Source: Anaerolineales bacterium (GTDB lineage Bacteria > Chloroflexota > Anaerolineae > Anaerolineales > DRKV01). From it: a DNA stretch of 32,263 nucleotides. The DNA lies in contig JAGUYX010000105.1 in NCBI GenBank assembly GCA_020061145.1, positions 1 through 32,263 of the forward strand. The letters run 5' to 3'. A model generated the notes under the pieces. It did not search any database and was not told the DNA's origin. It was given only the letters and a program-made list of their open reading frames with translations. Both the position numbers and the translations under genes were made by a program. Within the stretch, counting starts at the first letter, position 1, and every line of letters begins with the position of its first letter. Shown here one piece after another: positions 18,618-27,687 of this stretch.

Positions 18618-18646
18618 ATTATAAATGTGTTCTGCCCGGTTGACAA
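18618..18646 (-). promoter_or_regulatory. rpsA promoter
   Basis: Minus strand TTGTCA (18646-18641), 17-nt spacer, TATAAT (18623-18618). Confidence 0.7.
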
Positions 18647-18702
18647 CCTTTATCAAACATTCATCAACGGTTATAATGAAAGCCGCATGGTTAGGAAATA
18701 AA

Positions 18703-19809
18703 ATGCGACCTGTTTATCCGTTTACCGCTATCGTAGGGCAAAATCGTATGAAACGGGCGCTGATCATGAACGCCATCGATCAGCGCATCGGGGGTGTTCT
18801 GATTCGCGGCGAACGGGGTACTGCCAAATCCACTGCGGCGCGCGCCATGGCCGCATTGTTACCCGATATTGAAGTCTTCGCCGATTCTCCTTTCAACGAT
18901 GACCCGCATGCCCCGTCGACCTGGTCGGATTGGGCGAAAGAACATGTAGCCGCCGGCGGCAATAACAACATTGTCAAGCGCCGGGTACCCTTTATCGATC
19001 TGCCGGTCAGCGCAACCGAAGACCGCGTGGTGGGGACGCTGGATATCGAAAAAGCCATCCAGAAGGGCGAACGCCATTTTGAACCCGGTGTATTGGCTGC
19101 CGCTCATCGCGGCCTGTTGTATATCGACGAAGTAAACCTGCTGGACGATCACGTGGTGGATATCCTGCTGGATTCCGCCGCCATGGGAGTTAACGTGGTG
19201 GAGCGCGAGGGTATTTCCTTCGTTCATCCGGCACGCTTTATTCTGGTCGGTACAATGAATCCTGAAGAGGGCGATCTTCGACCCCAATTGCTGGATCGTT
19301 TTGGCCTGTCTGTGGAGCTGGTTGGCATCCGCGATGCCCGTGACCGGGTGTTGATCATGGAACGAAACCTGGCATTCGAGGCCGACCCTGAAGAATTCGG
19401 CCGCCAGTGGCAGTCTAAAGAACGGGAGTTATCTTCCCAAATAGCCCGGGCGCGCAAGCTGGTAGATCGGGTGACCTATACCAAACGTGATTTACTCTCC
19501 ATCGCCGCATTAAGCACCGATCTGAATGTGGATGGTCATCGCGCCGATCTGGTGCTGCTAAAAACTGCCCGCGCCAACGCCGCCTTCGAAGGTCGCCTGG
19601 CAATTAACAGCCGGGATATCGCCCTGGCAGCCGAGCTGGCCTACCCTCACCGCATCAAACGGGGCCCCTTCCACCAAAGCGAAATCACCTCTGAGCAGCT
19701 CCAGGAACGTATCGATCAACTTTATGGACAAAGCAGCAGCCCGGAGATGAACGAAGAGCCGGTACCTGTGGACGATGAGGTGATTGAGAAAAAAAAAAGG
19801 GTCGGTTAG
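18703..19809 (+). CDS. Magnesium/cobalt chelatase ATPase subunit (ChlI/BchI-like), zero-frame product
   Basis: PFTAIVGQNRMKRALIMNAIDQRIGGVLIRGERGTAKSTAARAMAALLP; LLYIDEVNLLDDHVVDILLD; LDRFGLSVEL. ATG 18703 preceded by TAGGAAATAAA. Ends IEKKKRVG* directly after A10GGG. Confidence 0.9.
   Translation: MRPVYPFTAIVGQNRMKRALIMNAIDQRIGGVLIRGERGTAKSTAARAMAALLPDIEVFADSPFNDDPHAPSTWSDWAKEHVAAGGNNNIVKRRVPFIDLPVSATEDRVVGTLDIEKAIQKGERHFEPGVLAAAHRGLLYIDEVNLLDDHVVDILLDSAAMGVNVVEREGISFVHPARFILVGTMNPEEGDLRPQLLDRFGLSVELVGIRDARDRVLIMERNLAFEADPEEFGRQWQSKERELSSQIARARKLVDRVTYTKRDLLSIAALSTDLNVDGHRADLVLLKTARANAAFEGRLAINSRDIALAAELAYPHRIKRGPFHQSEITSEQLQERIDQLYGQSSSPEMNEEPVPVDDEVIEKKKRVG
19777..19801 (+). promoter_or_regulatory. 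Putative recoding site: SD-like GAGGTGA plus A10GGG slippery run
   Basis: GAGGTGA at 19777-19783, A10 at 19789-19798, GGG at 19799-19801. Zero-frame stop TAG at 19807; the -1 frame has a TGA at 19785, so the shift must occur within the run. Confidence 0.7.
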
Positions 19810-20756
19810 GTGAAGACGAGGGGGAAGAACAGGCAGACGAGCAGGGTTCGGTAAATCCTTCAACGCAGAACGTTTTTCAATCCCTGGATGCAAACTGGTG
19901 GGATGGCGGACAGAAAGTACGTCCCGGCGAGGCTTTTACGCCGCGCCGCTTGGACAATCCCATTGATCGGATTACCCGCAGCAAAACGGGGCGCAGAACC
20001 CGTACCCGCACCGACCGGAAGCGTGGACGTTACATCCAGGCTCGCCCGGCACGGGGCAAGACGGATGATATTGCCTTTGACGCCACGCTGCGCGCTGCAG
20101 CGCCGTATCAGAAAAACCGCGGTGAACAGCGTGAACAGGTGGCTTTTGCCATCGAGCGGCAGGATTTACAACGTAAAATCCGGGTGAAGCGTACCGCTAA
20201 CCTGGTGATGTTTGTTGTGGATGCATCCTGGTCTATGGCGGTTGCCGAACGCATGTCAGCAACCAAAGGCGCTATCCTCTCTCTGTTAACGGATGCCTAC
20301 CAGCGGCGTGATCGGGTTGGCCTGATCGTGTTCCAAAAAAACCGCGCCTCGCTGGTCCTGCCGCCAACCAATTCCATCCAACTTGCCCAACGGGCGCTGG
20401 TGGATATTCCCGTGGGCGGAAAAACACCCCTCTCTGCCGGTCTGTATCTGGCTCTTCAGATTATCGTCCGCGAAAAACTCTCCCACCCGGATGTAATTCC
20501 CTTGATGATCCTGCTCACCGATGGGGCCGGCAACGTCGCCATGGGCAACCAGCCTCCACAAGTCGAGGCTCATCGCCTGGCGGATCAGATTGCGGAAGAA
20601 GGTATCCGCTGCGTGGTGGTCAACATGGAGCATGAGGCCTTCGACCAGGGTCTTGCGCAGTCCCTGGCGGATCACCTGAAAGCTCCTTGTTACACCCTGC
20701 ATGAGTTAAAAGCCGAAACGCTTTACGCCGCGGTGCGCAACGAAATAGGTGGTTAA
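19797..20756 (+). CDS. -1 frame extension: acidic linker plus VWA domain (ChlD/BchD-like C-terminal half)
   Basis: Frame open from the A-run: KGRLGEDEGEEQADEQGS..VRPGEAFTPRRLDNPIDRITRSKTGRRTRTRTDRKRGRYIQARPARGKTDDIAFDATLRAAAPYQ.., then VMFVVDASWSMA (MIDAS). No ATG or GTG in frame before 19950 (TTG, no SD). Confidence 0.88.
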   Translation, partial: KGRLGEDEGEEQADEQGSVNPSTQNVFQSLDANWWDGGQKVRPGEAFTPRRLDNPIDRITRSKTGRRTRTRTDRKRGRYIQARPARGKTDDIAFDATLRAAAPYQKNRGEQREQVAFAIERQDLQRKIRVKRTANLVMFVVDASWSMAVAERMSATKGAILSLLTDAYQRRDRVGLIVFQKNRASLVLPPTNSIQLAQRALVDIPVGGKTPLSAGLYLALQIIVREKLSHPDVIPLMILLTDGAGNVAMGNQPPQVEAHRLADQIAEEGIRCVVVNMEHEAFDQGLAQSLADHLKAPCYTLHELKAETLYAAVRNEIGG

Positions 20757-20762
20757 ACCAGT

Positions 20763-22802
20763 ATGCGCATTCTGGCGATTTTGTGCCTGATCTGGCTGGC
20801 CGCTTGCAGGCCGTCTCCCCCAGCTCCCACTCCAATTCCAGAAACCCTCTCCGCTCCCCGGATTTCGACTGCCACCTTGCCACCTGCCTCTCCCACTCCT
20901 GCTGTACACTTGACTCTGCTCAGCCAGTTGGGCAGGGGTATTGCGGAAGCCTTTGCCTGGTCCCCCGATGGAGCCCAACTGGCGGTTGCCTCAGCCACCG
21001 GAGTGTATCTATACCAGGCCGATACCCTGGAAGAAATCCAGGTCATCGGTCAGGGGTTGTGGGTAACCTCTATCGCCTTCAGCCGGAATGGGCAGCAACT
21101 GGCGCTGGGGTTGCGCAATGGCGGGGCGCGGGTGTGGGATTTTCCCACTAGCGCCTTTAGCCGCTCCCTGGAGGGCTCCAACGCCGCGGTGACCAGCATG
21201 GATTTCAGCCCGGATGGCAGCCAGCTTGCCATTGGCCGCGTGGACAGCACGTTATGGATCTGGCGATTAACCGATGGTCAGGTACGCCACCGCCTGCGCG
21301 GCCACAGCGATCGGGTGACGATGGTCGCCTACGGGGTACAACCGCTGGACGCCACACCGGGCGGGCATATGCTGGTTACCGCCAGCCGGGACGGCACCAT
21401 CCTGGCCTGGAATAGCGGAACCGGCAGCAGTCTGGCTTATTTCAACCAGCATCAGCAGCCAGTAAACGCGGCGATATTTGCGCCGCTGCCTCCCGGCGTG
21501 GAGGCGGTCAACGAAAAACTGGCTACCGCCGGCGAGGATGGCACCATCCGCTTCTGGCTGCCCCAACAGAATTTACCCATACTCACCATGCAGGCTTTTG
21601 CCCCATCAGGTAACGTCCTGCCGGAAGCCGTGGGCATCCGGACGATCGCCTTTACCTCGGATGGAGGCGTCCTGGCATCGGGAGATAGCGTGGGGAATAT
21701 TGCCTTATGGAATGCCATTACCGGCGAGCCATACCGGGCGTTTCAGGTTTATCGTAACAGCCCGGTGCGCCAGCTGGCCTTTCGTCCGGGCACGACCTTT
21801 CTCGGCTCTCTGGGAGACGATGGCATCATCCGCATCTGGAACGGCAACCCGGCTGCCAATGTCGATCAGACCGAACCGGAACCGCTTGCCAGCCTGGATC
21901 AGTTCAGCGGGGCTGTTTATGCTCTGGCGGCACAACCTGAAGGGAATATACTCGCCTCCGCACATGGCGATGGCGCGATCCGCTTATGGGATCTTTCCAA
22001 CGGGGAATACCTTGCCGCATTGCGCGGGCATAATGGCTCGGTAACTGCCCTGGCTTACAGCCCGGATGGCTCCCGGCTGGTTTCTGGCGGGCGAGATGGA
22101 AGTTTGCGTATTTGGGATAGCTCCTCCGTCCCTGAGGTCCAGAACGAAGCATTATCTGTGCTGCTTGGGCATCGCAATATGGTGCTGGATGTGGTTTTCA
22201 GCCCCGACGGCAGCCGGGTTGTTTCATCGGGAGCGGATGGCACGGTACGTCTTTGGGAGATACAGGCAGGCCGCCAGATCAGTACCCTGCGCACCGGTCA
22301 GGATTGGGTAAACAGCCTGGCTTTCAGTTCAGATGGCCAATATCTGGCTGCCGGAGATGAACGAGGCGTATTGCAAATCTGGGAAGGCATTTCCTCTGTC
22401 TCACCGGTTCAATCCGGGGAGCCTTTCCAGGCCCAGGAAGGCGCAATTTTAGGATTGGCCTTCGCCCGGGAAGACAACCTGCTGGCCAGCAGTGGCGACG
22501 ATAGTGTGATTAACCTGTGGGAAGTAAACACCTCCACGCAGCGATATACCCTGAGCGGGCATACCCAGCGGGTAACTGATCTGATTTTTATCCATGCCAG
22601 CGGGCTCCTCGCCAGCTCAGACGCAGGCGGTTATCTGTATTTGTGGCAGCTACCTAACCCTGTGCCCTATTTTCAATTCCAGGAACCCTGGCCGGTGGCA
22701 GCCCTTGCCAGTGGTCTGCCGCTCAGCAGCGAACACCTCTTGCTGATTTCCGGGAGCAGCGATGGCACACTGCGTTTATGGGGTTTGAATCTGGTTCCTT
22801 AA
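20763..22802 (+). CDS. WD40-repeat lipoprotein
   Basis: Signal peptide LIWLAAC lipobox; many repeats of form FSPDGSxLVSGGxDGSLRIWD; starts 6 nt after the chelatase stop. Confidence 0.93.
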   Translation: MRILAILCLIWLAACRPSPPAPTPIPETLSAPRISTATLPPASPTPAVHLTLLSQLGRGIAEAFAWSPDGAQLAVASATGVYLYQADTLEEIQVIGQGLWVTSIAFSRNGQQLALGLRNGGARVWDFPTSAFSRSLEGSNAAVTSMDFSPDGSQLAIGRVDSTLWIWRLTDGQVRHRLRGHSDRVTMVAYGVQPLDATPGGHMLVTASRDGTILAWNSGTGSSLAYFNQHQQPVNAAIFAPLPPGVEAVNEKLATAGEDGTIRFWLPQQNLPILTMQAFAPSGNVLPEAVGIRTIAFTSDGGVLASGDSVGNIALWNAITGEPYRAFQVYRNSPVRQLAFRPGTTFLGSLGDDGIIRIWNGNPAANVDQTEPEPLASLDQFSGAVYALAAQPEGNILASAHGDGAIRLWDLSNGEYLAALRGHNGSVTALAYSPDGSRLVSGGRDGSLRIWDSSSVPEVQNEALSVLLGHRNMVLDVVFSPDGSRVVSSGADGTVRLWEIQAGRQISTLRTGQDWVNSLAFSSDGQYLAAGDERGVLQIWEGISSVSPVQSGEPFQAQEGAILGLAFAREDNLLASSGDDSVINLWEVNTSTQRYTLSGHTQRVTDLIFIHASGLLASSDAGGYLYLWQLPNPVPYFQFQEPWPVAALASGLPLSSEHLLLISGSSDGTLRLWGLNLVP

Positions 22803-22862
22803 GTTAATTCACATAAGGATTTAATTAACTGTATTTCGTAATCGTAGTAGGGGCTGGGGAAA

Positions 22863-23162
22863 AGTGGATAAGTTCGCTTTGGGGGAAAGGCGTGTCCTGG
22901 ATATAGCAGCCGGGCGGAATTAAGCCGCAGATCTGGCGGTTGACCGTCGGTCCACAGGGCCGGATTAAATGAATCTTATCCCCACCCAGGCTGCGAGGAG
23001 AATGTGGACAGGCGGGAGGGATTGTCCACAGGATATACACAGAAGATAGATATGGGGGGATCTCGCAGAGCATTCCCATATATGGGAGTCAGTAAAGCTG
23101 AATTGCGGATAGTTTTCCCCAGTTAGAGGGACTTATCCACAGTTTTTCGCGAGTTATCCACA
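22863..23162. other. DnaA-box cluster (candidate oriC or DnaA-binding locus)
   Basis: Exact TTATCCACA at 23133-23141 and 23154-23162. One-mismatch sites at 22863-22871 (reverse), 22976-22984 and 23022-23030. Weaker sites at 23003-23011 and 23033-23041. AT-rich flanks at 22803-22840 and 23240-23283. Confidence 0.6.
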
Positions 23163-23222
23163 GAAAAATGTCCCTGCAAAGGTTTCCCCCTGACCGTTTT
23201 CCGAATTGACCGGGCAAGTTTC

Positions 23223-23251
23223 TTGACAAAGCGGCTTGGGAGATTTACAAT
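23223..23251 (+). promoter_or_regulatory. Promoter of the MFS-ArsR-MFS operon
   Basis: TTGACA (23223-23228), 17-nt spacer, TACAAT (23246-23251). Confidence 0.72.
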
Positions 23252-23255
23252 TTCT

Positions 23256-23271
23256 TTAGATATTTATCTAA
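23256..23271. promoter_or_regulatory. Perfect palindrome TTAGATA-TT-TATCTAA, probable operator
   Basis: 7-bp arms, 2-nt centre, starting 5 nt after the -10 box, at the expected transcription start. Confidence 0.6.
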
Positions 23272-23295
23272 CAAATTGTTCTTGAGCGGGATTTT

Positions 23296-24795
23296 GTGAA
23301 CCGGACGAATATCAAAACACCCCGTATGCCGACAGGAATGGCCGGATTTACCCTGGTCTGGGCCGGGCAATTGGTGTCATTGTTAGGCAGTGGAATGACA
23401 ACCTTTGCCATCAGTATCTGGGCCTGGCAGGAAACCGGGCAGGCGACTGCCCTGGCCCTGGCCGGCTTTTTTGGATTCGGGCCAACCATCCTGCTCAGCC
23501 CGTTTGCCGGGGCAATCGTTGACCGGTATAACCGCAAGCTGGTGATGATGCTCAGCGATTTGGCCGCAGGGTTATCTACGTTGGCTCTTTTCCTGCTGTA
23601 TGCCAACGGTGCACTGGAAATCTGGCATATTTATCTGGCCAATGCCTTCGCCGGCTCCTTTGCTGCGTTTCAATTTCCGGCTTATTCAGCCGCGGTCACG
23701 ACAATGATGGAGAAAAAGCACTATGCCCGGGCAAGCGGGATGCTTTCCCTGGCAGAATCCGCCTCCGGTATCTTTGCGCCATTGCTGGCGGGCGCCTTAC
23801 TGGGTTTTATCGGCATCGCCGGTATTATGGCAATTGATATTGTCACGTTTATTTTTGCCATCATTGCCTTGTTGCTGGTTCACATCCCGAACCCGCAGGT
23901 CACCGAAGAAGGACAACGCAGCCGGGGCAATTTCCTGCGTGAATCGATGTTCGGATTTACTTATATTTTCGCCCGGCCGAGTCTGCTCGGGTTGCAATTG
24001 GTCTTTTTTGCGATTAATTTCATAGCTATGTTCAGCTTTGTCCTTTTACCGCCAATGCTCCTGGCGCGCACCGGGAACAACGAGCTGGTACTGGGTTCGG
24101 TGCAATCCATCGGCTCGATCGGTGGGCTGATCGGCGGCCTGGTGTTGAGCGCCTGGGGTGGACCTCAACGCAAAGTGGACGGGGTGTTGCTCGGCATGGT
24201 GCTGATCAGCCTTTCGCAGGGGATGATGGGTCTGGGGCAGGCTTTTCTTGTCTGGGCTGCCGCCAGTTTTGCGGTTTCCTTTTTCCTCCCGATCTTGAAC
24301 GGTTCCAACCAGGCCATCTGGCAGGCGAAGGTTGCCCCCGACGTACAGGGCAGGGTATTTGCCACGCGCCGGCTGATCGCCCAGATCACCGCACCGGTCG
24401 CCATGCTGCTTGCCGGCCCCATCGCCGACAGGCTGTTTGAGCCGGCATTTTTAACCGGTGGGGCATTGTCTTCATCTGTTCTGGCCGGGCTGGTTGGCAG
24501 TGGGCCAGGGGCAGGCATGGGGATGATGTTTGTTTTTTCCGGTTTTCTGGGTATGCTGATTGGTTTTGGTGGTTATCTCTTCCCCGCAATTCGTAATGTG
24601 GAAGAAATCCTGCCGGATTACGGTGCGCCGGGAGCAGTTGTACCTGGCCATGTTCCTGACCATCGTCAACGCCAATTAATGGAACTTCTGGCGCAACGTG
24701 AAAAAATTATCCGCAACCCGGATTTCCAGACAAGACAGGTTGAATTGCGCCTCATTGGTCAGCGGCTGCGTGCGCTGGGGCGGATGGAGGAATGA
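23296..24795 (+). CDS. MFS transporter
   Basis: GTG start; multi-TM; FGPTILLSPFAGAIVDRYNRKLVMMLSDLAAG loop typical of MFS exporters. Confidence 0.88.
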   Translation: MNRTNIKTPRMPTGMAGFTLVWAGQLVSLLGSGMTTFAISIWAWQETGQATALALAGFFGFGPTILLSPFAGAIVDRYNRKLVMMLSDLAAGLSTLALFLLYANGALEIWHIYLANAFAGSFAAFQFPAYSAAVTTMMEKKHYARASGMLSLAESASGIFAPLLAGALLGFIGIAGIMAIDIVTFIFAIIALLLVHIPNPQVTEEGQRSRGNFLRESMFGFTYIFARPSLLGLQLVFFAINFIAMFSFVLLPPMLLARTGNNELVLGSVQSIGSIGGLIGGLVLSAWGGPQRKVDGVLLGMVLISLSQGMMGLGQAFLVWAAASFAVSFFLPILNGSNQAIWQAKVAPDVQGRVFATRRLIAQITAPVAMLLAGPIADRLFEPAFLTGGALSSSVLAGLVGSGPGAGMGMMFVFSGFLGMLIGFGGYLFPAIRNVEEILPDYGAPGAVVPGHVPDHRQRQLMELLAQREKIIRNPDFQTRQVELRLIGQRLRALGRMEE

Positions 24796-25898
24796 TGGGA
24801 AGCAGTAACCCGGCGTTACTGTGGGATACTGGCACGGCATATGATTTTTTAATCAGCCTGCATGTGCTGCACACACCGGATCGATTTGGGCTGCGGGGTT
24901 CCTGGGCGGCGGGCGTCCGTTCGCGTCTACCCGCTGCTGAACGAAAGGTGCTGGAACAGGCGGAAGAAATCTTCTGGCTGCCGCTGCACTGGCTGTATCG
25001 CCTGCCGGAACCGAAAGATGGGCAGACCCTGCTGGCGGAGCTGGAGAAAATCCCGGCCCGCGAACGCCTGCCTGTGCTGGGACTGAGACCTTCCCTGTCT
25101 CAGGATTTGCGCGAGTTATTGCAGGATGTGCAAGAACATGGCTCATGGAAAAAGGCCGATTTGGAGCAAATGCGCAGCCTGTTAAAGAACCGCATCCGCA
25201 CATTACGTCAGGATACCGCAGAAATAATTTTGAATGGTTGGGCAGATCCTGCCGGAACGGGCGAAGCATACCTGGCTGCACTGAAGGTATATTATGAGGT
25301 TTTCTTCGCCGAGGAAGAACATCGTATCCGCCCGGCAATAGATAAATCGCTGGAACATGCCCAGAAATTATCCCGTAAGGTGGATATCGATTCCCTGCTG
25401 GCGGAGCTATCCCTGGGCGTGCATTTCGAGCCGCCTTTATTCCATCCTGAGGCCGACCTGGTACTGGCGCCATCCTTCTGGATAACCCCGCTGGTAGTCT
25501 ACGAGCAACTCTCGGAAAATCGCTGGATTTTTGTTTTTGGAGGTCGACCGGAAGACGCGTCATTGGTTCCGGGAGAACCCGTTCCGGACAGCCTGCTGCA
25601 ATCCTTAAAAGCCCTGGCAGACCCTACCCGCCTGCGTATTTTACGTTACCTGCTGGACAGGCCGTTAACCCCCAGCCAGCTGGCAAGGATGCTGCGCCTG
25701 CGTGCGCCAACCGTGGTGCATCACCTCAACGAATTGCGCCTGGCGGGGCTGGTGCACCTCACGTTGGTGACACCTGAGAAAAAGGGGGAACGCCGGTATG
25801 CTGCCCGGGTAGAAGCCATCCCACGCCTGTTCAGTACCCTGCAATCTTTTCTGGAGCAAACAGATACCGAAACGGAAGAGGAACGATTTTCGAAATAA
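24792..25898 (+). CDS. ArsR-family transcriptional regulator with extended N-terminal domain
   Basis: C-terminal wHTH: LKALADPTRLRILRYLLDRPLTPSQLARMLRLRAPTVVHHLNELRLAGLV; overlaps upstream stop by 4 nt. Confidence 0.87.
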   Translation: MMGSSNPALLWDTGTAYDFLISLHVLHTPDRFGLRGSWAAGVRSRLPAAERKVLEQAEEIFWLPLHWLYRLPEPKDGQTLLAELEKIPARERLPVLGLRPSLSQDLRELLQDVQEHGSWKKADLEQMRSLLKNRIRTLRQDTAEIILNGWADPAGTGEAYLAALKVYYEVFFAEEEHRIRPAIDKSLEHAQKLSRKVDIDSLLAELSLGVHFEPPLFHPEADLVLAPSFWITPLVVYEQLSENRWIFVFGGRPEDASLVPGEPVPDSLLQSLKALADPTRLRILRYLLDRPLTPSQLARMLRLRAPTVVHHLNELRLAGLVHLTLVTPEKKGERRYAARVEAIPRLFSTLQSFLEQTDTETEEERFSK

Positions 25899-25899
25899 G

Positions 25900-27183
25900 A
25901 TGCATATTTACCGCAAAACTGCCTCCACCGGGCTGGGTATGTATTTCAGCCGCTTGCGTGCTTTCCGCCCCAACGCCCGTTTATATTTACTCCATGTCAT
26001 TATCGCCGGGGCGGCCCTCGGCGTGTTCCGCCTGCTGTTCAATTTTTACGTGCTCAGCCTGGGTTACGACGAAGCCCTGCTCGGCAGCCTGATTACCACC
26101 AACAATTTCTCGGCTTTGATCTTCGCTCTGCCGGTGGGTTATTTGGCAGATTTGCTCGGTCGTAAACGCTCTTTGCTCATTTCAGGCATTGGCGTGGCCT
26201 TATCGATTGCCGGCATGGTGTTATTCCCCTCCACCGGTATGTTTTACGCCATGAACGTCCTGTCTGGCGTGGCGCAGAGCCTGGGCGGAGTCACCATGGC
26301 GCCATTTTTGATGGAAAACAGCGGTACGGAAGAACGCACCTACCTGTTCAGCTTTGCTTCCGGCTTACAAACCGGATCGGCTTTTCTGGGTAACTGGATT
26401 GGCGGTTATCTGCCGACCTGGATAGCAACCAGCCGGATGGTTTCGGAAACCAGCAGTATCGCTTACGCCGGCGCCTTGCTGGTGATCGCCATGGTCGCTC
26501 TGTTGGGTCTGCTGCCCCTGTTTTTCCTTAAGATGTTGCACTTACGCCGGGAGGATAAATCGGTTTTTGCCCCGGTCAATTACGCCCGCCAACACCCGGT
26601 TCTTTTGGGAAAACTGGTCGGGCCGATGTTAATCACTGCCATTGGCGCCGGACTGATCATGCCGTTTATGAATGTCTTCTTCCGCCAGGTACATCACCAG
26701 CCAGACCCGGTTATCGGCTCGCTGTTCGCCTGGGGTTCGCTGGCAATGGGTGTAGGGCTGATGCTTGCTCCGGCGCTGGCCGATCGATATGGCAAGATTC
26801 AGGTGGTTGTGGTGACCCAGGCGCTCTCCATCCCTTTCCTGGTCATGTTAGGCTTTGCACCCTGGTTCTGGATGGCGGCGGTTGCTTATTACATCCGGTT
26901 GGCGTTGATGAACATGAGCAACCCGGTTTACCAGACGTATGTCATGGAGCATGTAGAACCCGGCGCTCGCGCCACGGTAGCCAGTCTGGTGAGCATGGCC
27001 TGGAGCTTCGGATGGGCATTCAGCCCGTCCGTCAGCGGGTGGTTGCAGGTGAATTACGGTTTTGGGCCGCCATATATCGGCACGATTGTGTTGTATACCA
27101 TTGCTGTCTTTTTATACTGGAAATTCTTCTGGAATCGCCAGGTCGAGCCAGGGTCTCTACCGGCTCCTGCGACGGGAGATTAA
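25900..27183 (+). CDS. MFS transporter
   Basis: Multi-TM; LGYDEALLGSLITTNNFSALIFALPVGYLADLLGRKRSLL; begins 2 nt after the ArsR stop. Confidence 0.88.
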   Translation: MHIYRKTASTGLGMYFSRLRAFRPNARLYLLHVIIAGAALGVFRLLFNFYVLSLGYDEALLGSLITTNNFSALIFALPVGYLADLLGRKRSLLISGIGVALSIAGMVLFPSTGMFYAMNVLSGVAQSLGGVTMAPFLMENSGTEERTYLFSFASGLQTGSAFLGNWIGGYLPTWIATSRMVSETSSIAYAGALLVIAMVALLGLLPLFFLKMLHLRREDKSVFAPVNYARQHPVLLGKLVGPMLITAIGAGLIMPFMNVFFRQVHHQPDPVIGSLFAWGSLAMGVGLMLAPALADRYGKIQVVVVTQALSIPFLVMLGFAPWFWMAAVAYYIRLALMNMSNPVYQTYVMEHVEPGARATVASLVSMAWSFGWAFSPSVSGWLQVNYGFGPPYIGTIVLYTIAVFLYWKFFWNRQVEPGSLPAPATGD

Positions 27184-27279: not shown

Positions 27280-27687
27280 ATGGAAATGTTAATCAATTTT
27301 CCCGGTGGGGCTCGGGTTGATGCCCAATTTGGCCCTTACACGGTACAGACAGATCAACCACCCATGGGAGGCGGAGCAGGCTCTGCCCCGACGCCATTTG
27401 CTGTGTTCCTGGCTTCGATTGGAACCTGCGCCGGGATTTACGTATTGGGGTTCTGCAAGCAACGCGGCTTGCCGACCGAAGGCATCCAGTTGATCCAACG
27501 GGTGCATACCGACCCAACCAGCGGCATGGTGGGGAAAGTAGAGCTGGAAATTCAAGTTCCGCCCTCGTTCCCCGAGCAGTATCACAGTGCCCTGGTCCGT
27601 TCGGCGGAACTTTGTGCCGTGAAAAAGCACTTCGAAAAACCGCCGAAATTTGATATCTATACCAAATCTGTGGTAGTACCCGCCTGA
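27280..27687 (+). CDS. OsmC family protein
   Basis: FLASIGTCAGIYVLGFCKQRGLPTEGIQL; second Cys in RSAELCAVKKHFEKPPKF; SD AAGGAG upstream. Confidence 0.82.
   Translation: MEMLINFPGGARVDAQFGPYTVQTDQPPMGGGAGSAPTPFAVFLASIGTCAGIYVLGFCKQRGLPTEGIQLIQRVHTDPTSGMVGKVELEIQVPPSFPEQYHSALVRSAELCAVKKHFEKPPKFDIYTKSVVVPA

Follow-up and report, generated by a model that had tools for sequence, protein, structure and literature searches.

A very probable chromosomal replication origin apart from dnaA in Anaerolineales, with an NrdR-box-like palindrome

An intergenic DnaA-box cluster and its surroundings

The window, the whole stretch of 32,263 nt analysed here, corresponds to contig C116 of an assembly of 3.15 Mb and 325 contigs, the nearest named relatives of which are Anaerolineales and other Chloroflexota MAGs. 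It contains an intergenic region of 493 bp, flanked by a WD40-repeat gene and an MFS gene. The features of this region and its conserved neighbours are as follows.

18625..19809, plus strand: BchI/cobaltochelatase-like AAA ATPase gene, conserved neighbour of the putative origin
19950..20756, plus strand: VWA-domain protein gene, conserved neighbour of the putative origin
22803..23295: 493-bp intergenic region, very probable oriC, WD40-repeat gene on one side and MFS gene on the other
22803..22828: AT-rich end containing TTAATTAA, where unwinding probably starts (DUE)
22829..22850, minus strand: DnaA-trio repeats, CTACTACGATTACGAAATACAG on that strand, then a short GC run (22850-22854)
22855..22871, minus strand: inverted overlapping DnaA boxes TTATCCACT (22863-22871) and TTTTCCCCA (22855-22863), facing the trio
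22976..22984, plus strand: DnaA box with one mismatch, TTATCCCCA
23022..23030, plus strand: DnaA box with one mismatch, TTGTCCACA
23043..23058: degenerate second palindrome half AAGATAGATATGGGGG, centred 30 bp away from the main palindrome; best-scoring partner, weak alone
23074..23087: NrdR-box-like palindrome TCCCATATATGGGA, between the inverted and tandem box groups
23133..23141, plus strand: exact DnaA box opening the tandem pair; the palindrome starts 59 bp away
23154..23162, plus strand: exact DnaA box closing the tandem pair, a 21-bp step on from the first
23240..23283: second AT-rich stretch, on the tandem-box side, 80% AT
27280..27687, plus strand: OsmC-like protein gene, separated from the intergenic region by MFS-ArsR-MFS genes

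The boxes listed in a preliminary description of this region, which proposed a candidate oriC with no dnaA beside it, are all present. Two exact boxes, TTATCCACA, lie 21 nt apart on the plus strand at 23133 and 23154, three one-mismatch boxes are located at 22863 (minus strand), 22976 and 23022 (both plus strand), and the weaker boxes at 23003 (minus) and 23033 (plus) have two mismatches each. Further two-mismatch boxes occur at 22855 (minus) and 23113 (plus). Boxes with no more than one mismatch number 15 in the window, versus 5.1 expected, and none of 100 shuffles reached 15. Five of these (the two exact and three one-mismatch boxes) fall within 300 nt, for which the maximum in 60 first-order simulations was 1 or 2. 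The flanks of the cluster are AT-rich, with 76% AT at 22803-22840 and 80% at 23240-23283, relative to a window mean of 45%. The stretch at 23240-23283 may double as the promoter site of the MFS gene.

On the minus strand, TTATCCACT is followed, after 13 bp, by TAC TAC GAT TAC. By eye and by a simple pattern, this conforms to the motif rule for the basal unwinding system (BUS), namely at least three trios (3′-NAN-5′) within 16 bp of a DnaA box (PMC8287927); the trio is assigned by motif. The BUS was described for Bacillus and is predicted in 85% of 2070 origins, with a peak of box-trio spacers at 10-13 bp (PMC8287927). The window has in common with the Bacillus subtilis BUS (PMC8287927) boxes beside trios of the 3′-GAT-5′ type, a 13-bp spacer from TTATCCACT, AT-rich DNA next to the trios, and tandem boxes. 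Unlike the B. subtilis origin, the site is not beside dnaA and has a lineage-specific palindrome between the box groups, in helical phase. Neither the minus-strand DnaA-trio nor the central palindrome appears in the preliminary description.

The directions of the surrounding genes had been taken as those expected for forks leaving the site. To the left, rpsA, a ClpC/ClpB-type gene and radA are indeed on the minus strand, and ychF to the right is on the plus strand, but the BchI-like ATPase, VWA and WD40 genes (18625-22802), which had gone unmentioned and lie between rpsA and the gap, are all on the plus strand. The immediate left neighbours therefore break the leading-strand rule.

Conservation, GC skew and the position of dnaA

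Loci in related genomes were found via the conserved BchI-like neighbour and via tandem box pairs. An AT-rich end, DnaA-trio repeats, inverted boxes and tandem boxes 21 bp apart form a layout common to at least six families of the order, and the order of trio, inverted boxes, palindrome and tandem boxes is kept in most of 30 loci. In the relatives, a TTAATTAA-type AT-rich end (at the equivalent place in L032, L051, L062, L174 and L190) is followed by TAGTAG repeats, which read CTACTAC on the minus strand, and by a short GC run; beyond these come an inverted box or two of them, a spacer, the palindrome and finally the tandem boxes. Their tandem boxes step by 20-21 bp, with the inverted boxes ~200-290 bp away from them; the trio motif is beside the inverted boxes in relatives too, and an inverted pair with 8-bp spacing is found in L032, L051, L174 and others. 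The box cluster is kept in many relatives, conservation on which the original proposal had been made to depend. A cluster near the BchI gene in L105 was dropped as an orthologue, as its layout differs.

OsmC directly adjoins the origin locus in L030, L032, L062 and L190. In the window, the MFS-ArsR-MFS genes (23296-27183) lie between the two, and parts of this set also border the locus in G003 (L115) and G124 (L174). Relative to the conserved neighbour genes, the locus is inverted in G124 (L174) and G243 (L190).

Within the window, GC skew changes from -0.050 on the left side of the gap to +0.052 on its right side, in agreement with the weak hint obtained earlier from hand tallies, and the minimum of the cumulative skew is at 20925, ~2 kb left of the cluster. 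Since the assembly is a MAG in 325 contigs, whole-chromosome skew was taken from relatives, with twenty 20-kb samples from each of two near-complete genomes, G243 and G231. In both, the whole-chromosome skew minimum, the position of which had been named as a check, coincides with the orthologous cluster. The 20 samples from G243 (a 2.717-Mb contig) have negative skew from 0.87 to 2.11 Mb and positive skew elsewhere; one flip is at 2.1209 Mb, where L190 has the orthologous cluster, and the other at ~0.75-0.87 Mb, half a chromosome away. The skew of G231 (3.520 Mb) flips at the cluster (0.327 Mb) and at ~1.95-2.1 Mb, also half a chromosome apart. In G124, the skew is scrambled and noisy overall, yet there is a local flip at its cluster. 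The whole-genome skews of G124 and G076 were too scrambled to serve as evidence and were set aside.

As first described, there is no dnaA beside the cluster. The sole full dnaA of the genome is on contig C176, between dnaK and a gene for an AI-2E-type transporter, and a box cluster looked for at this dnaA is absent. In three relatives (G243, G231 and G253), dnaA and the origin locus are ~320-330 kb apart. In L375 (G011:C424, family f9), the end of dnaA is 58 bp from the origin palindrome, next to the box cluster. With dnaA still at the origin at this single locus, the separation of dnaA from oriC is suggested to be derived. In family f9, dnaA abuts the cluster; elsewhere in the order, the two are hundreds of kb apart.

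The box cluster, the AT-rich element, the conserved layout and the skew flips in relatives together support the original proposal, and we conclude from these sequence features that 22803-23295 is very probably the chromosomal replication origin (probability about 0.93). Under the alternative put forward with that proposal, the cluster would be a DnaA titration or regulatory site, comparable to datA, with the true origin elsewhere, for example at the array on C204 (L012:9381-9454). There, four tandem boxes ~21 bp apart, three exact and one with one mismatch, lie downstream of a bPH_5 gene and just upstream of a DUF92 gene, and the array has more exact boxes than the cluster in the window. It lacks, however, a trio, an AT-rich element and any change of skew, and was rejected as an origin on these grounds; the skew of G243 and G231 flips at the orthologue of the window site, and arrays upstream of DUF92 recur in many relatives (11 of the 30 DUF92 loci examined, and also G023, G054, G076 and G124). 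Such arrays occur in many families of the order. Lacking a trio and a skew change, the C204 array itself is a candidate titration or regulatory site, similar in kind to the E. coli datA and DARS sites, which are DnaA-box arrays outside the origin (PMC12371093). Unlike these E. coli sites, the window site has a trio, an AT-rich element and a skew switch, which argue for an origin and make the titration alternative very improbable. Clustering of box-like sequences by chance or in connection with a promoter, for which the presumed MFS gene promoter in the region could be cited, is hardly credible, as more than two boxes per 300 nt were found in 0 of 60 simulations and a layout conserved across families rules chance out. 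A pair of exact boxes on C179 was rejected as a candidate because it is inside a moeA-like coding frame.

With 22803-23295 as the origin, we infer that DnaA would bind the exact tandem boxes (23133 and 23154) and the inverted boxes (22855-22871), extend from the inverted boxes onto the DnaA-trio (22829-22850, minus strand) and open the AT-rich end (22803-22828) in the manner of the Bacillus BUS.

The palindrome, its distribution and spacing

The core of the palindrome, CCCATATATGGG, has one exact copy in this genome, at the putative origin. The 14-mer consensus, CCCCATATATGGGG, is present as an exact match in 108 of 299 genomes of the order, whereas the reversed control gave 0, and it is rarely found beyond the order and class; outside the order, in a draw from the phylum, it was found in 3 genomes of the same class and 2 others. 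The 84 sites examined form a non-random sample, made up of the matches listed by the search: 30 precede nrdR and 9 precede dnaA, 27 belong to DnaA-box clusters, and the remaining 18 fall elsewhere. Six more sites upstream of dnaA were deduced from their positions. As a reference for the association with box clusters, 1 of 400 random 1-kb stretches drawn had three or more boxes. The palindrome is absent from some of the origin loci compared, L062 and L130, and upstream of this genome's own dnaA there are just degenerate copies. Upstream of dnaA in family f11 (L281, L378 and L380), the palindrome is immediately followed by a DnaA box, TGTGGATAA, which looks as though both regulators might act at this place. 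Ten neighbours were scanned for the 18 palindromes without nrdR, dnaA or DnaA boxes and had no common theme; they include one ATP-cone protein (L334) and two phage integrases (L342 and L366). The exact palindromes of L342 and L366 are near the integrase genes and are possibly in mobile elements.

The distance from the palindrome to the first exact tandem box is 59-61, 70-71 or 80-82 bp in 23 of 28 origin loci. The probability of this phasing by chance is about 1e-7, an optimistic value as related genomes are not independent. Helical phasing of this kind argues for a protein that cooperates with the DnaA complex.

NrdR as a candidate link between precursor supply and initiation

NrdR is an ATP/dATP-sensing repressor of ribonucleotide reductase. 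We identified nrdR by TIGR00244 and its neighbour nrdJ by TIGR02504, and NrdR is encoded in all 12 genomes tested. Before nrdR, the palindrome has a partner box 31 bp upstream (z = 7.1), and the nrdR-nrdJ genes of this genome are likewise preceded by a palindrome pair 31 bp apart (913 and 944 in L301). Known NrdR boxes are two of 16 bp with a gap of 15-16 bp (PMC12176259). A palindromic box and the 31-bp pair before nrdR-nrdJ are therefore held in common with the described NrdR regulon (PMC12176259); unlike in that regulon, oriC and the dnaA upstream region carry the motif as well, for the most part as a single strong site whose partner is weak or otherwise spaced. In 21 origin loci, a partner at 30-31 bp is weak (z about 2.4), that in the window, at -30, scoring 7.0 bits; before dnaA the partner is at 39-40 bp, which is non-canonical for NrdR. 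The nrdR leaders of family f11 (L298-L307) have a conserved sequence, TACGGGGATGCAG...GCCCANANATGGC, that spans both boxes and exceeds the conservation that boxes alone need. No earlier report of an NrdR box in oriC was found in the literature searched (NrdR with dnaA, oriC or regulon; origins of Chloroflexi or Anaerolineae; oriC apart from dnaA), a search that covered papers outside subscription; a prior mention of dnaA in this connection may exist.

The most likely binder of the palindrome is NrdR, at roughly even odds. Another regulator with the same site, which would control replication genes and ribonucleotide reductase, might instead bind the palindrome in oriC and before dnaA; this is the main rival reading, and we regard it as less likely than not. 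The mostly single strong site in the origin, and the second site before dnaA at 39-40 bp versus the 31-bp pair before nrdR, would fit such a regulator; the identical exact 14-mer before nrdR, however, has the canonical pair geometry of NrdR boxes and every genome tested encodes NrdR. Caulobacter offers a parallel for a regulator with its site within oriC, next to DnaA boxes, since CtrA binds oriC there and blocks DnaA (background in PMC12186491); unlike CtrA, the proposed regulator is a nucleotide sensor that has sites before ribonucleotide reductase genes as well.

If NrdR is the binder, it would occupy the palindrome at high dATP, next to the tandem DnaA boxes and at a constant helical phase to them, and might then restrain or otherwise tune initiation and dnaA expression. 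The simplest reading of all three locations is that NrdR would bind at each of them and make both initiation and the expression of dnaA depend on the dATP/ATP ratio. On the motif evidence, it is a balanced question whether NrdR binds oriC, the dnaA upstream region and the ribonucleotide reductase operon, and so directly gates both initiation and precursor supply in Anaerolineales. The recurrence of the palindrome before the initiator and ribonucleotide reductase genes hints that DNA supply is directly linked to the start of replication.

Connections between dNTPs and initiation are usually discussed indirectly, through control of ribonucleotide reductase expression by DnaA and through effects of dNTPs on S-phase entry. 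The very probable origin described here is placed apart from dnaA in a large and mostly uncultured group, which matters for the prediction of origins and for metagenome-based estimates of growth rate. Should the palindrome prove to be an NrdR site, it would provide a concrete and testable molecular link of the dNTP pool to the start of replication.
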